Shown one piece after another: positions 5,448-59,375 of a stretch of 64,000 nt of DNA. The notes beneath the pieces are model-generated. The model was given only the letters and a program-made list of their open reading frames with translations, searched no databases and was not told the DNA's origin. This DNA comes from Alkalibacillus salilacus (lineage in GTDB: Bacteria > Bacillota > Bacilli > Bacillales > Alkalibacillaceae). The stretch is from NCBI RefSeq assembly GCF_030812915.1, contig NZ_JAUSTQ010000002.1:186001-250000 (forward strand). The letters are read 5' to 3'. Both the position numbers and the translations under genes were made by a program. Each line of letters starts with the position of its first letter. Position 1 is the first letter of the stretch.

Positions 5448-6542
5448 TTAACCGAGAAAATCTTTTGTATTATGTTGTTCTACTTGGTTGTGAAGTCCTT
5501 GGTTAATACCTGATGCAACCAGTTTTGACATATGCACAATCACATCATCTACTTCCTTAGGTGTGACTATTAAATTGTGTCCTATTGGGCTTAATACTTC
5601 TTCTATTAATTGTCTTTTTTCATCTTCACCCAACTGACCAATTAATCCTAAATATCGTTTCCTCTCTTCTTCTTCAGGTAAATCTTCATCTGTGAGTTCT
5701 TTTCGTTCTCCAAAAGTCATCCCACTCGGCGTTAATGCTTTACTGGCTTTGTCTTGCTCATCAACCTCACGTCCGAAATGCTTTAATAGATAGTCAATCG
5801 TATCACTCGTGATGGTGACAGCATCGACCACTGTCGGAATGCCTATCGAAAAAACAGGTACATTTAACGTAGATTCACTCACTTCTTTACGATCATTCCC
5901 AACTCCTGACCCTGGATGAACACCAGTATCAGATAATTGTATTGTTGTATTCACTCGATCGATCGACCTTGCTGCTAAAGCATCGATTGCGATAATAAAA
6001 TCAGGTTTTACCTTTTCGACCACACCAAAAATAAGATCTGTGGTCTCCACTCCAGTTAGTCCCATTACACTTGGCGTAAAAGCAGTCAAAGGACGAAAGC
6101 CTTTTTCAACACGTTCTGGCTGTAATTTGAATAAATGATTGGTCACATAGACTTTCTTCGTTACTTGAGGTCCCAATGCATCAGGTGTTACATAATCATT
6201 TCCTAAACCGACAATAAGCCCCATCGCATCCGGATGAATATCATGGAACTCAAGCAGCCTTTCTAATTCACCAGCTAATAAAGTACCTAATTGCTTTTCG
6301 AAATCATCATTTAGTCGCCGCATCAGTTGAGATTCAATAGTTGTATAATGCCCCGGCGCTTTGCCTACACGCTCAGCTCCCTTTGAGTCAATCTTTACTC
6401 GCGTTAATTTAATATCATCTTCTTCAAATGTCTTAATCGTAATTCCGTCTAATTCTTCTTTTCGGTCCGGATTCTGTTCAACAAACATATCTCGCGCTTC
6501 TAAAGCTAAATCCGTTCGGCGATTAGCATTAATCTTAGTCAT
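5448..6542 (-). CDS. gpr: GPR, spore germination protease for small acid-soluble proteins
   Basis: GPR is made in the forespore as an inactive zymogen and degrades alpha/beta and gamma SASPs at germination. The 364-residue length matches the roughly 370-residue family. The short N-terminal propeptide precedes RTDLALEA, the conserved region after which family members mature. Conserved internal blocks include IVGLGNDYVTPDALGP, SVMGLTGVETTDLI and PGSGVGNDRKEVS. The ATG has GGAGG 6 nt upstream. A SigG-type promoter is visible upstream. spoIIP follows after 65 nt on the same strand. Confidence 0.96.
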   Translation of the reverse strand: MTKINANRRTDLALEARDMFVEQNPDRKEELDGITIKTFEEDDIKLTRVKIDSKGAERVGKAPGHYTTIESQLMRRLNDDFEKQLGTLLAGELERLLEFHDIHPDAMGLIVGLGNDYVTPDALGPQVTKKVYVTNHLFKLQPERVEKGFRPLTAFTPSVMGLTGVETTDLIFGVVEKVKPDFIIAIDALAARSIDRVNTTIQLSDTGVHPGSGVGNDRKEVSESTLNVPVFSIGIPTVVDAVTITSDTIDYLLKHFGREVDEQDKASKALTPSGMTFGERKELTDEDLPEEEERKRYLGLIGQLGEDEKRQLIEEVLSPIGHNLIVTPKEVDDVIVHMSKLVASGINQGLHNQVEQHNTKDFLG

Positions 6543-15533: not shown

Positions 15534-16316
15534 TTATTCATTCATAGTCCATATTTCAAATGCTTTGACCGCTTGATAGTATAACATGGATTCTCCAAAA
15601 AGTAAGGGACAACCTTCCTCATGAGCTTCTATTAACAATTTAGTCCACGTCGGCTGATAAACAATATCACTTATGATCGGATTAGACTCCAGCCCTTTCA
15701 ATGCAATAATAGATTGATGATCATTCGGTGCCATACCGACAATCGTTGTATTTATAACTAAATCAACTTGAGATAAGACCGAAGCCACTTGTGACCACTT
15801 AATTGTTTCTATTTCAGGAAATATAGACGCTAATTCTGAAGCTTTCGATTGTGTTCGATTAGCAATAAGAATACGTCCTAACTGATGGGTCACTAATTGA
15901 TGAGTAATCCCCTTAGCTGCTCCACCAGCACCCAACACTAAAACTGTTTTCTCCTGTCTATTTTTAAACCAATCTGGATAGTCTTGCTTAAGAGATTCAA
16001 TATAACCTAATCCGTCTGTATTGTAGCCAATCAATCGTCCATTCACTATTTTAACCGTATTAACGGATTGCATGACTTCTGCGGACGTTTCTAAAGCATC
16101 TAAAAACGGAATAATCGTTTCTTTATATGGGACTGTTACGTTGAAGCCTTTATAGCCTTTGGTTATTAAATGCTCAAGCGTTTCTGAAATTATCGATTCA
16201 TCTATTGAGAACAGATGATATTCTCCTGCTAAACCATTCTCCGCTAGCAATTTATGATGGATGGCAGGTGACTTCGAATGCTCTACAGATTTCCCAATTA
16301 AACCAAGCTTGTACAT
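15534..16316 (-). CDS. aroE: Shikimate dehydrogenase
   Basis: AroE reduces 3-dehydroshikimate to shikimate with NADPH. The 260-residue protein has the substrate-binding GKSVEHSKSPAIHH at the N-terminus, FNVTVPYKE with the catalytic Lys, NTDGLGY, the nucleotide-binding VLGAGGAAKGI and ANRTQSKA. It belongs to the yqeG operon. A 356-bp GC-rich structured repeat lies in the 439-nt gap from yqeH, whereas most gaps in this operon are under 20 nt. Confidence 0.96.
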   Translation of the reverse strand: MYKLGLIGKSVEHSKSPAIHHKLLAENGLAGEYHLFSIDESIISETLEHLITKGYKGFNVTVPYKETIIPFLDALETSAEVMQSVNTVKIVNGRLIGYNTDGLGYIESLKQDYPDWFKNRQEKTVLVLGAGGAAKGITHQLVTHQLGRILIANRTQSKASELASIFPEIETIKWSQVASVLSQVDLVINTTIVGMAPNDHQSIIALKGLESNPIISDIVYQPTWTKLLIEAHEEGCPLLFGESMLYYQAVKAFEIWTMNE

Positions 16317-16377: not shown

Positions 16378-16733
16378 GTTGTTGAATTGTGAGAAGCGAA
16401 GGTGGCGACTCCTGGTCAAATAAGTTCGGTCACGTCCTATGACCAACGTTGACATTAGGCCGTCCGGGCCGTCACGGGAAAAGCACGAGTCTCGACACCC
16501 CACAGGAAGCGCTTTTCTTCCGAGGGATGCACCTGCGTCTGCAAGTCAACGCTTCGAAGTAGGCTTCCTCGGTGCAAGTTGCAAGGTAGCACATTCGATG
16601 ATGTAAACTGGCTCGAGCCGTGCCCCTGCATAGAAAACACTGTGAAAAACGAACGTAGTGAGATTGAACAGATGTTGCACTTGTGCCCTATGGGTAAAAG
16701 CGTCCACCGAAAGCGGATCACAAGATCAACAAC
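16378..16733. repeat. Structured GC-rich repeat, copy A (long form with three hairpin insertions)
   Basis: Copy A of an inverted-ended repeat also present at 45660-45805 and 59230-59375. The ends are GTTGTTGAATTGTGAG and CACAAGATCAACAAC. Relative to the 146-bp copies it has three extra blocks at about 16415-16474, 16526-16608 and 16626-16692. Each begins and ends with complementary bases (GTCAA/TTGAC with inner GGTCA/TGACC; TGCACC/GGTGCA; CATAG/CTATG). It lies inside the yqeH-aroE gap of an operon read on the opposite strand. An 88-codon ORF within it is not credible. Confidence 0.85.
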
Positions 16734-16755: not shown

Positions 16756-17862
16756 TTATATAATGGCATCGCGTACAATGATTCTAACACCCTTAGGTGC
16801 GTAGGCAGTTACAGATGTTTTCCCCTTCGGCACTGTAACCCAGCCAAGTCCAGAAAACACAATATCTTGTTTATGATTTCTATTTAACTGCAACGTCTGT
16901 GGTTCTAAAGGTGGCATCTCATCTAATGTTTCATCTGATGGAGGTGATAATAACTCCCCAGCATGTTGATCATATAATAAGTCAGCTTTATCTGTTTTAG
17001 TACGATGGATATGAATATCATTAGATACATAACAAACAAAGCCTTTACGTTCATCCACTTTATCAATATCCAAACGTGCTAAAGCGCCAAAAAACAATGT
17101 TTGGTCCGACTCTAATTGGAAGACTTTTGGTTTAACCTCTTTATCAGGTGTAATAACTTTCAAATCATTTTTTGATAAATAATGAGCCATCTGATGACGA
17201 TTAATAATTCCTGGTGTATCAATAAGTGACGACTGATCATCTAATGGTATATCAATAAATCCAAGGGTAGTTCCAGGGAAATAAGATGTTGTAATAACTT
17301 GTTCTTGTTCAATTGAACGGTTAATTAAGTAGTTAATAAAAGTAGATTTACCTACATTCGTACAGCCCACAACGAAGATGTCTCTACCTTGTCTTAGTCG
17401 TTCTAGTTCAAAGGCGCATTCTTCCATATTCGTACCTGTCTTAGAACTGACTAGGTAAACATCTTTTACTTTTAGCCCGAATTCTTTTGCTACGCGCTTC
17501 ATCCAATGCTTTACTTTATTAAGATTGATCGAGCTAGGCAATAAATCCACTTTATTGCCTACCAATATAATTTCGTTTTGGCCGACAAAACGGTTTAGAC
17601 CGTCGACAAAACTGCCATGTACGTCAAACAAATCAACAATATTAACAACTAATCCGTCGTGGTCTCCGATTTCATGTAATAAGTTAAGGAAATCATCGTC
17701 CGTCAAGTCAACATCTTGTACTTCATTATAATGTTTTAAGCGAAAACATCTTTTACAGATAACATCTTCTCGTTCTAAAGCTGAAACTGGCGCATAACCT
17801 ACCTTATTCTCATCTTCCGTTTGAATCTTAGCACCACAGCCTTGGCAGTAAATTGTCTCCAT
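16756..17862 (-). CDS. yqeH: YqeH, circularly permuted GTPase for 30S assembly
   Basis: YqeH is needed for 30S biogenesis. The 368-residue protein has an N-terminal zinc finger (CQGCGAKIQ and ICKRCFRLKHY), then G motifs in permuted order: NKVDLLP (G4), VSSKTG (G5), GCTNVGKSTF (G1), and DTPG (G3). A C-terminal domain follows. It is 1 nt from yqeG upstream. Length matches B. subtilis YqeH (366). Confidence 0.96.
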   Translation of the reverse strand: METIYCQGCGAKIQTEDENKVGYAPVSALEREDVICKRCFRLKHYNEVQDVDLTDDDFLNLLHEIGDHDGLVVNIVDLFDVHGSFVDGLNRFVGQNEIILVGNKVDLLPSSINLNKVKHWMKRVAKEFGLKVKDVYLVSSKTGTNMEECAFELERLRQGRDIFVVGCTNVGKSTFINYLINRSIEQEQVITTSYFPGTTLGFIDIPLDDQSSLIDTPGIINRHQMAHYLSKNDLKVITPDKEVKPKVFQLESDQTLFFGALARLDIDKVDERKGFVCYVSNDIHIHRTKTDKADLLYDQHAGELLSPPSDETLDEMPPLEPQTLQLNRNHKQDIVFSGLGWVTVPKGKTSVTAYAPKGVRIIVRDAII

Positions 17863-45598: not shown

Positions 45599-45659
45599 AT
45601 AAAGTCCCTCCTTAAGTTTTCCTTAATACGCATTAAATATAAAAGCTTTGTTAAAGTCC

Positions 45660-45805
45660 GTTGTTGATATTGTGCTCCGCTTTCGGTGGACGCTTTCCGC
45701 GGGCACGGCTCGAGCCTCCTCGGAAGAAAAGCGCTTCCTGCGGGGTCTCGAGACTCGTGCTATTCCCGCAGGAGTCGCCACCTTCGCTTCTCACAATTCA
45801 ACAAC
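45660..45805. repeat. Structured GC-rich repeat, copy B (146-bp core, reverse orientation)
   Basis: The core runs from GTTGTTGATATTGTG to CACAATTCAACAAC and differs from copy C at six positions by hand count. Weaker matching flanks extend it to about 45641-45845 (TTTGTTAAAG on one side, CTTTAACA on the other), giving outer inverted ends. It lies in the hisS leader, between the T-box terminator and the start codon, so it is transcribed into the mRNA. Confidence 0.9.
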
Positions 45806-45861
45806 TAAATGCTTAATACTTTGAAATCAACACTAAACTTTAACATAGCCAATATAAAAAA

Positions 45862-59229: not shown

Positions 59230-59375
59230 GTTGTTGAATTGTGAGGAGCGAAGGTGGCCACTCCTGCGGGAACAGCACGAGTCTCGAGACCCCGCAGGAA
59301 GCGCTTTTCTTCCGAGGAGGCTCGAGCCGTGCCCGCGGAAAGCGTCCACCGGTAGCGGATCACAATATCAACAAC
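59230..59375. repeat. Structured GC-rich repeat, copy C (146-bp core)
   Basis: The core begins GTTGTTGAATTGTGAG and ends CACAATATCAACAAC. Outer homology to copy B extends to about 59190-59393 (TGTTAAAGTTTAGTGTTGAT on the left, ATCAAAGCTT on the right). It is visibly richer in G and C than its surroundings and full of complementary segments (CTCCTGCGGG/CCCGCAGG, GCACGAG with CTCGAGCCGTGC). It lies between yrzE and yajC. ORFs through it are not credible. Confidence 0.9.

Follow-up and report, generated by a model that had tools for sequence, protein, structure and literature searches.

The junction between aroE and yqeH in Alkalibacillus salilacus raises the question of why one copy of a small interspersed repeat is 210 bp longer than two other copies nearby and what the additional blocks are. 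In the window, i.e., the whole stretch of 64,000 nucleotides that was analyzed, this copy (copy A) occupies positions 16378 to 16733 on the plus strand, opposite in orientation to both of its neighbors, aroE (15534 to 16316, minus strand) and yqeH (16756 to 17862, minus strand). The cores of copy B (45660 to 45805, minus strand) and copy C (59230 to 59375, plus strand) are unextended and 146 bp long. The original prediction had placed the entire excess of copy A in three blocks of about 60, 83, and 67 bp that close on themselves and had read these blocks as peripheral stem extensions of a structured RNA rather than as the result of random decay. A global alignment against copies B and C agrees exactly with these lengths, and removal of the three blocks, here termed modules S1, S3, and S4, leaves the 146-bp core. 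From 5' to 3' on the plus strand, copy A comprises the 5' arm of stem P1 (GTTGTTGAATTGTGA, 16378 to 16392), whose partner in the fold is the 3' end of the core; the 5' strand of P2 (GGTGGCGAC, 16401 to 16409), assigned by covariation; module S1 (60 bp, 16415 to 16474); an apical hairpin GGAAG...CTTCC (16505 to 16521), whose place is taken in other copies by a module absent from copy A, S2; module S3 (83 bp, 16526 to 16608); module S4 (67 bp, 16626 to 16692), which has covarying stems; the 3' strand of P2 (GTCCACC, 16702 to 16708), also assigned by covariation; and the 3' arm of P1 as seen in the fold (TCACAAGATCAACAAC, 16718 to 16733). The borders of the three modules were taken from the alignment.

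The family that hosts these modules is a MITE with IS1595-type ends and target duplications of 8 to 9 bp. Copies of type I continue past their arms to the ends GGCTCTGTTAAAG...CTTTAACAGAGCC, and a perfect 8-bp duplication was found in 27 of the 79 copies for which both ends were recognized (each end may slide by 3), compared with 1.1% perfect 8-mers, and a maximum of 5.1% over 200 mispairings, when flanks were mispaired. Copy B, which lies between a T-box leader and hisS, is a whole, unextended mobile element (GGCTATGTTAAAG...CTTTAACAAAGC, 45645 to 45850, minus strand), and its site is empty in Alkalibacillus almallahensis; A. salilacus carries the 9-bp target duplication TTTTATATT on both flanks (left copy, 45851 to 45859; right copy, 45636 to 45644; both minus strand). 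In A. almallahensis, a different copy (L339) is inserted elsewhere in the same T-box/hisS leader. A relative (G021) contains a 1,698-bp IS (L342) with the same ends and an 8-bp duplication (TATAGAAA), and its 351-amino-acid product matches the IS1595 transposase model NF033547 (3e-62). Unlike this IS, the repeat lacks a transposase gene; its structured interior carries modules, and L342 showed no trace of that interior. The transposase domain PF12762 exceeded its cutoff in 3 of the 22 genomes of the family; the search of the A. salilacus genome returned one partial match to it (20.8 bits, below the cutoff of 27), and a full IS1595 transposase was not found in this genome. Copy A itself is an old representative of this MITE whose ends have decayed: intact terminal inverted repeats are no longer present at its outer ends, and the 3' end of its ortholog in A. 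almallahensis has likewise decayed. An origin from plasmids was rejected (in plasmids, the copy C region had two weak matches and a 72-nt core query had none), as was an origin from phages, in which no match was found.

The repeat is abundant in A. salilacus, where 83 match rows were merged by hand into 40 copies, 7 of which lack the type I arms GTTGTTGAATTGTGA/TCACAATATCAACAAC and have different ends. Six further copies were recovered through matches to the Rfam family RF01690 and five through a model of the core, resulting in at least 51 copies. The core pattern was present in at least 114 stretches of named genomes, which, among the matches listed, belong to the genera Sporosarcina, Planococcus, Alkalibacillus, Filobacillus, Allobacillus, Lentibacillus, Virgibacillus, and Gracilibacillus and to one record titled Arthrobacter. 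The occurrence in the latter record (Arthrobacter beigongshangensis; L086 and L111) is unexpected for an actinobacterium, and the record is possibly mislabeled or contaminated. Across the phylum, the core model was detected in 2 of 249 genomes, a sample that contained few Bacillales and in which the best 12 candidates per genome were scored, so that this figure carries little weight. Inspection by eye of the type II copies (L034, L038, L041, L045, and L046) revealed other ends, followed by a terminator-like hairpin with a T-rich tail, and these copies may be transcribed units of their own. In the literature searched, neither of two exact core strings had a match and a description of the repeat was not found, PMC9936203 and PMC3116915 being without relevance to it in the parts accessible; subscription papers lay mostly outside this search, and we do not claim absence from print.

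Inside the MITE lies a 146-nt sequence whose fold is conserved. When 55 unextended copies were aligned (5 from A. salilacus and 50 of the 94 from named stretches), 25 consensus pairs were obtained, 8 of which show changes on both sides, for example, pair 31/136 in 20 sequences and pair 54/117 in 22; P3 is largely fixed by the search pattern and is hence little informative on covariation. Copy C folds at -70.3 kcal/mol, with a z score of -6.13. The folding of copy A itself counts against the original prediction: the unextended copy folds far better than shuffled sequences, but the fold of the whole 356-nt copy A (z score, -1.48) is no better than the chance expectation, and its three blocks folded singly (z scores, -1.97, -0.26, and -0.83) have at most a slight advantage over shuffled sequences. 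In five of six copies, the plus strand has a lower folding energy than the minus strand, and in the sixth the two energies are equal (differences, 0 to 14.6 kcal/mol). Since the plus strand folds as well or better in all six, the comparison leans towards RNA over single-stranded DNA.

We then counted modules in a set of 40 A. salilacus copies (type I arms in 38, different arms in 2), a set that omits the type II copies, the locus C8:48888, and the five copies known from the core model alone. Thirty of these copies were extended, at four sites plus one nested site: 10 copies had no module, 20 had S1, 3 had an insert nested in S1, 14 had S2, 10 had S3, and 10 had S4. They represent 15 module states (14 besides the unextended one), and the length of every copy equals that of the core plus its modules within 2 bp. 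Among the 67 copies sampled in A. almallahensis, a genome with at least this many, 34 had no module, 26 had S1, 4 had the nested insert, 10 had S2, 15 had S3, and 7 had S4. The 67 copies represent 16 states, and all lengths but one, which is 7 bp longer, were within 3 bp of the respective sum. S1, the nested insert, S2, S3, and S4 are discrete modules that occur in many combinations at fixed places in the core fold. That other long copies would be extended at the same few sites was borne out in A. salilacus and its relatives, and the blocks are discrete; for the copies compared, the additive lengths and fixed sites rule out random decay or scattered insertions, as had been foreseen. S4 keeps its place in Virgibacillus, Bacillus piscicola, Gracilibacillus, and Allobacillus. 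S3 was found in Gracilibacillus and, as variants, in Filobacillus; the same 3' segment follows, but the apical hairpin is replaced, and the place of S3 is thus nearly the same in other genera while not being beside an apical hairpin in these two. S2 is not a clean insertion, as it takes the place of the whole apical hairpin.

The complementary segments named in the original prediction are all present in copy A, and across copies the pairing of all three blocks is kept well above that of slid controls. (i) For S1, pairing, including GTCAA/TTGAC and GGTCA/TGACC, was observed in 532 of 544 cells from 34 distinct sequences, one of which (L090, Filobacillus) sits at the S4 place, compared with 99 to 222 of 544 in slid controls. 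Compensatory changes were found at pairs 5/37, 6/36, and 46/56, among others, and the GTCAA/TTGAC of copy A is itself such a change, since most copies have GTCGA/TCGAC. (ii) For S3, TGCACC/GGTGCA was paired in 177 of 180 cells from 30 sequences (slid controls, 29 to 91). This closure is kept above controls, but its letters hardly vary and show no compensatory changes, so variation gives no test of S3 pairing. (iii) For S4, CATAG/CTATG was paired in 118 of 135 cells from 28 sequences (slid controls, 41 to 74); one of its five pairs varies often and fails in 6 sequences, and the consensus fold is built on other stems, AACA/TGTT and CTGY/RCAG, both with compensatory changes. Judged by pair counts, such changes occur at four pairs in the 28 S4 sequences and at none in the 30 S3 sequences. 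Compensatory base pairs, as expected of a structured RNA, are therefore present in the core, S1, and S4, with none in S3. The blocks of copy A are interchangeable, largely self-pairing modules, present or absent at a small set of shared sites across dozens of copies of a mobile repeat.

On the basis of its sequence, S1 is related to Bacillaceae-1 (RF01690), a family previously catalogued as a small RNA gene. The S1 module of copy A is a diverged relative that scores 25.8 bits, below the gathering score of 35, and no RF01690 match at gathering level was found anywhere in the 64-kb window. When six loci were scanned against Rfam at E values up to 5, RF01690 was the only family matched within the element, and the core did not correspond to a known family. 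The window also contains 6S RNA (RF00013; 42262 to 42445, minus strand; 100 bits) and a second T-box leader (RF00230; 33700 to 33906, minus strand; 96 bits). In the entire A. salilacus genome, 33 RF01690 matches were listed, with scores of 39.2 to 81.4 bits, and all of them lie inside the repeat; 31 were placed by a script and 2 by reading the sequence, namely, a long full copy that the script had truncated and C8:48888. Sorted by hand, they correspond to S2 (14 matches), S1 (18 matches), and a further insert (1 match). Relative to the core, the S2 matches are in minus and the S1 matches in plus orientation, so that related sequences lie on opposite strands of the same element. The locus C8:48888 (L065), outside the counted set, has a further RF01690-like insert inside S1, with the 3' part missing. 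Inserts inside RF01690-like hairpins (L022, L028, and L031, which are copies with the nested insert, and also L211 and L065) share a CGATTACTCGGC-like motif and are perhaps a further module family.

RF01690 matches were present in 78 of 150 genomes sampled from Bacillales. Inspection by eye of 20 loci in 20 genomes, that of A. salilacus included, revealed the RF01690 module within several unlike GC-rich repeats and in both orientations. In five genomes, all 40 loci picked from the top-scoring matches had a flank that recurs beside another RF01690 locus in that genome. A match at the S2 place but in plus orientation was found in Lentibacillus (L081), Filibacter (L134), Bacillus piscicola (L147), and L186, and in Filobacillus (L090) the match is at the S4 place. 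The opposite orientations of S2 between genomes imply at least two acquisitions, and RF01690 has been acquired several times independently by one repeat family. A copy in Bacillus piscicola (L084, positions 6232 to 6474) contains three RF01690 matches in both orientations, and its modules appear by eye to be nested. By eye, RF01690 modules apparently also occur in at least three further Bacillales repeat families (L197, L205, L206, and L213; L199, L200, and L214; and L196, L198, L204, L207, L208, and L211).

To compare copies at the same genomic places, we used 60 regions of A. almallahensis CECT 8373 along with the loci already collected and paired copies by their flanks. Of the resulting 12 pairs, copy B/L339 was set aside, since these are separate insertions within one leader; the remaining 11, a small sample from one species pair, are the places common to the 40 and 67 copies compared. 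Between these two sister species, orthologous copies have diverged much more in module content than in sequence: flanks were 93.4% identical, whereas all 11 pairs differed in at least one module, and 20 of the 55 site comparisons were discordant, compared with an average of 19.5 for shuffled partners. The ortholog of copy A at the aroE-yqeH junction carries no module, and in the relatives G001, G002, G003, G004, and G008 there is no element at this junction, which measures 16 to 17 bp. Within the element, orthology is kept in the 5' arm (a difference of 3.2% for orthologs and 11.9% for random pairs), hardly kept in the interior segment mid1 (6.6% and 9.2%), and partly kept, about as in the arms, in the second interior segment mid2 (1.7% and 3.4%). 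For the 3' arm there were 35 raw differences in 407 positions, 22 of which come from one pair offset by a one-base gap. Seven pairs have in common one or more core bases that are rare among the copies (present in fewer than 20%), and four, including the copy A pair, have none in common. In the pair L040/L338, a minority base directly beside S1 (T in 17 of 94 copies) is identical with and without S1.

The explanation that we hold best, with a confidence somewhat above even, is that the element is a structured MITE, with modules passing from copy to copy, probably through gene conversion over short tracts, and with an RNA role that is hypothetical. An IS1595-family transposase would spread the whole element, and modules would be exchanged among the roughly 50 copies per genome by short-tract recombination, i.e., ectopic gene conversion. 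Now and then a new module would be captured, RF01690 being probably the most promiscuous. Hairpin tips and joints may tolerate modules because a self-closing module does not disturb the outer stems. Copy A would perhaps have received its interior by exchange after the element had become fixed between aroE and yqeH; alternatively, modules may have been lost in A. almallahensis, the data being compatible with gain as well as with loss. The weakened orthology of mid1 is the partial loss that conversion predicts, and the fact that S2 takes over the entire apical hairpin also favors conversion. Against conversion, a minority core base is common to only 7 of the 11 pairs and to none in the copy A pair, and for L040/L338 the unchanged base makes bare insertion or deletion fit at least as well. 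The failure to find a full IS1595 transposase in A. salilacus, the decayed outer ends of copy A, and the small number of pairs also count against this explanation. Separate insertions are in part favored by this base, by the orthology of mid2, and by the opposite S2 orientations. Each module could instead be a miniature element with a mobility of its own, a nested hyperparasite that settles in hairpin tips and joints of other structured repeats, a possibility that we take seriously but consider rather doubtful. It would account for RF01690 modules inside unlike repeats of other Bacillales, for the repeated flanks at all 40 picked loci, for S2 in minus orientation in A. salilacus and in plus orientation in L081, L134, and L147, for the match at the S4 place in L090, for the insert nested in S1, and for the three matches in both orientations in L084. 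It fits less well with module edges, which, in an unsystematic look at the alignments read, had neither terminal inverted repeats nor target duplications, with the exchange of the apical hairpin for S2 in place of a clean insertion, and with the interior bases that change as well in several pairs. In its broadest form, which we put forward tentatively and think more likely wrong than right, Bacillaceae-1 and its fellow modules would be selfish plug-in units in the hairpin tips and joints of Bacillales mobile repeats, with precise and fast insertion and exit reshuffling them between sister species while the surrounding element stays orthologous.

The idea of peripheral stem extensions of a structured RNA stands in part. 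The recurrence at the same sites, the discrete blocks, and the compensatory pairs in the core and in two of the three blocks agree with it, but what carries them is a mobile repeat bounded by transposon ends, with no clear sign of being an RNA gene, and orthologous copies differ in which of the interchangeable blocks they contain. That the element is a functional structured RNA, with modules being extensions selected for RNA function, appears unlikely to us, although it is compatible with module swapping within a MITE. The stability of the unextended core, the double changes at 8 of its 25 pairs, the covariation in S1 and S4, the constant place of S4 in other genera, and the lower or equal energy of the plus strand speak for it. 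On the opposite side, the module state of orthologs differs as if random; only 11 places are common to the 40 and 67 copies compared; S1 and S2 are related and yet opposite in orientation; and copy A as a whole does not fold better than chance. A more specific function, that the modules are CsrA binding sites, predicted from a motif as in the proposal for reverse-complement RF01690 (PMC4333381, in the part accessible), is highly improbable: S2 in the core plus strand does read CACAGGATGTG, from the RF01690 reverse complement, but S1 in the same element carries the opposite strand, the orientation of S2 varies between genera, and such loops were not seen in S3 or S4. We also considered an assembly artifact, in which one or both assemblies would contain repeat interiors taken from a different copy. 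The two genomes are draft assemblies (30 and about 40 contigs), in which misassembly of repeat interiors could imitate swapping, and loss of orthology in the interior with retention in the arms is the pattern expected of such an error. The outermost module edges are, however, roughly 50 to 130 nt from unique flanks, a distance that should be within one ordinary read, and in some pairs (L040, L042, and L044) orthologs share minority bases on both sides of the changed modules, which leaves this artifact improbable. Because they recur in several genera, the modules themselves are not artifacts.

Several families of small repeats bear on a MITE that swaps modules. ERIC elements have internal insertions at specific places. 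As described in the accessible part of PMC2229807, ERIC and Correia/NEMIS are likewise small MITEs with folded transcripts, terminal inverted repeats, and target site duplications, and that part, with which we compared by description only, contains no comparable set of interchangeable modules. The nearest known architecture, compared by architecture alone, is that of pneumococcal BOX elements, which, according to the accessible part of PMC3049150, are modular interspersed repeats (boxA, boxB, and boxC) with terminal inverted repeats, target duplications, and a predicted fold, the middle module being absent or present in several copies. Unlike BOX, the A. salilacus repeat has at least four unlike modules at separate places, nesting, and many combinations, together with IS1595-type ends and one module from a family found in other repeats too. 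Its ends and 8-bp duplication are shared with IS1595-family IS and MITEs, exemplified by the L342 IS. With respect to Bacillaceae-1 (PMC2864571, PMC4333381, and PMC8208703, as far as accessible), S2 and most S1 modules score above the gathering threshold. Eight Bacillaceae-1 structures have been reported for Bacillus subtilis in the accessible part of PMC8208703, and that of PMC4333381 proposes that the reverse complement binds CsrA. RF01690 is filed in Rfam as an sRNA gene, whereas the matches listed for A. salilacus are all parts of a larger repeat.

If this interpretation is true, a small RNA family of Rfam would be recast as an interchangeable part of mobile repeats. The view of RF01690 as a stand-alone regulator would be weakened, and the annotation of many Bacillales genomes would change, given that 78 of the 150 sampled carry matches. 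The dozens of natural copies per genome would furthermore be a system for measuring how defined sites gain and lose structured modules, and such a system could separate short-tract gene conversion from module transposition by experiment.
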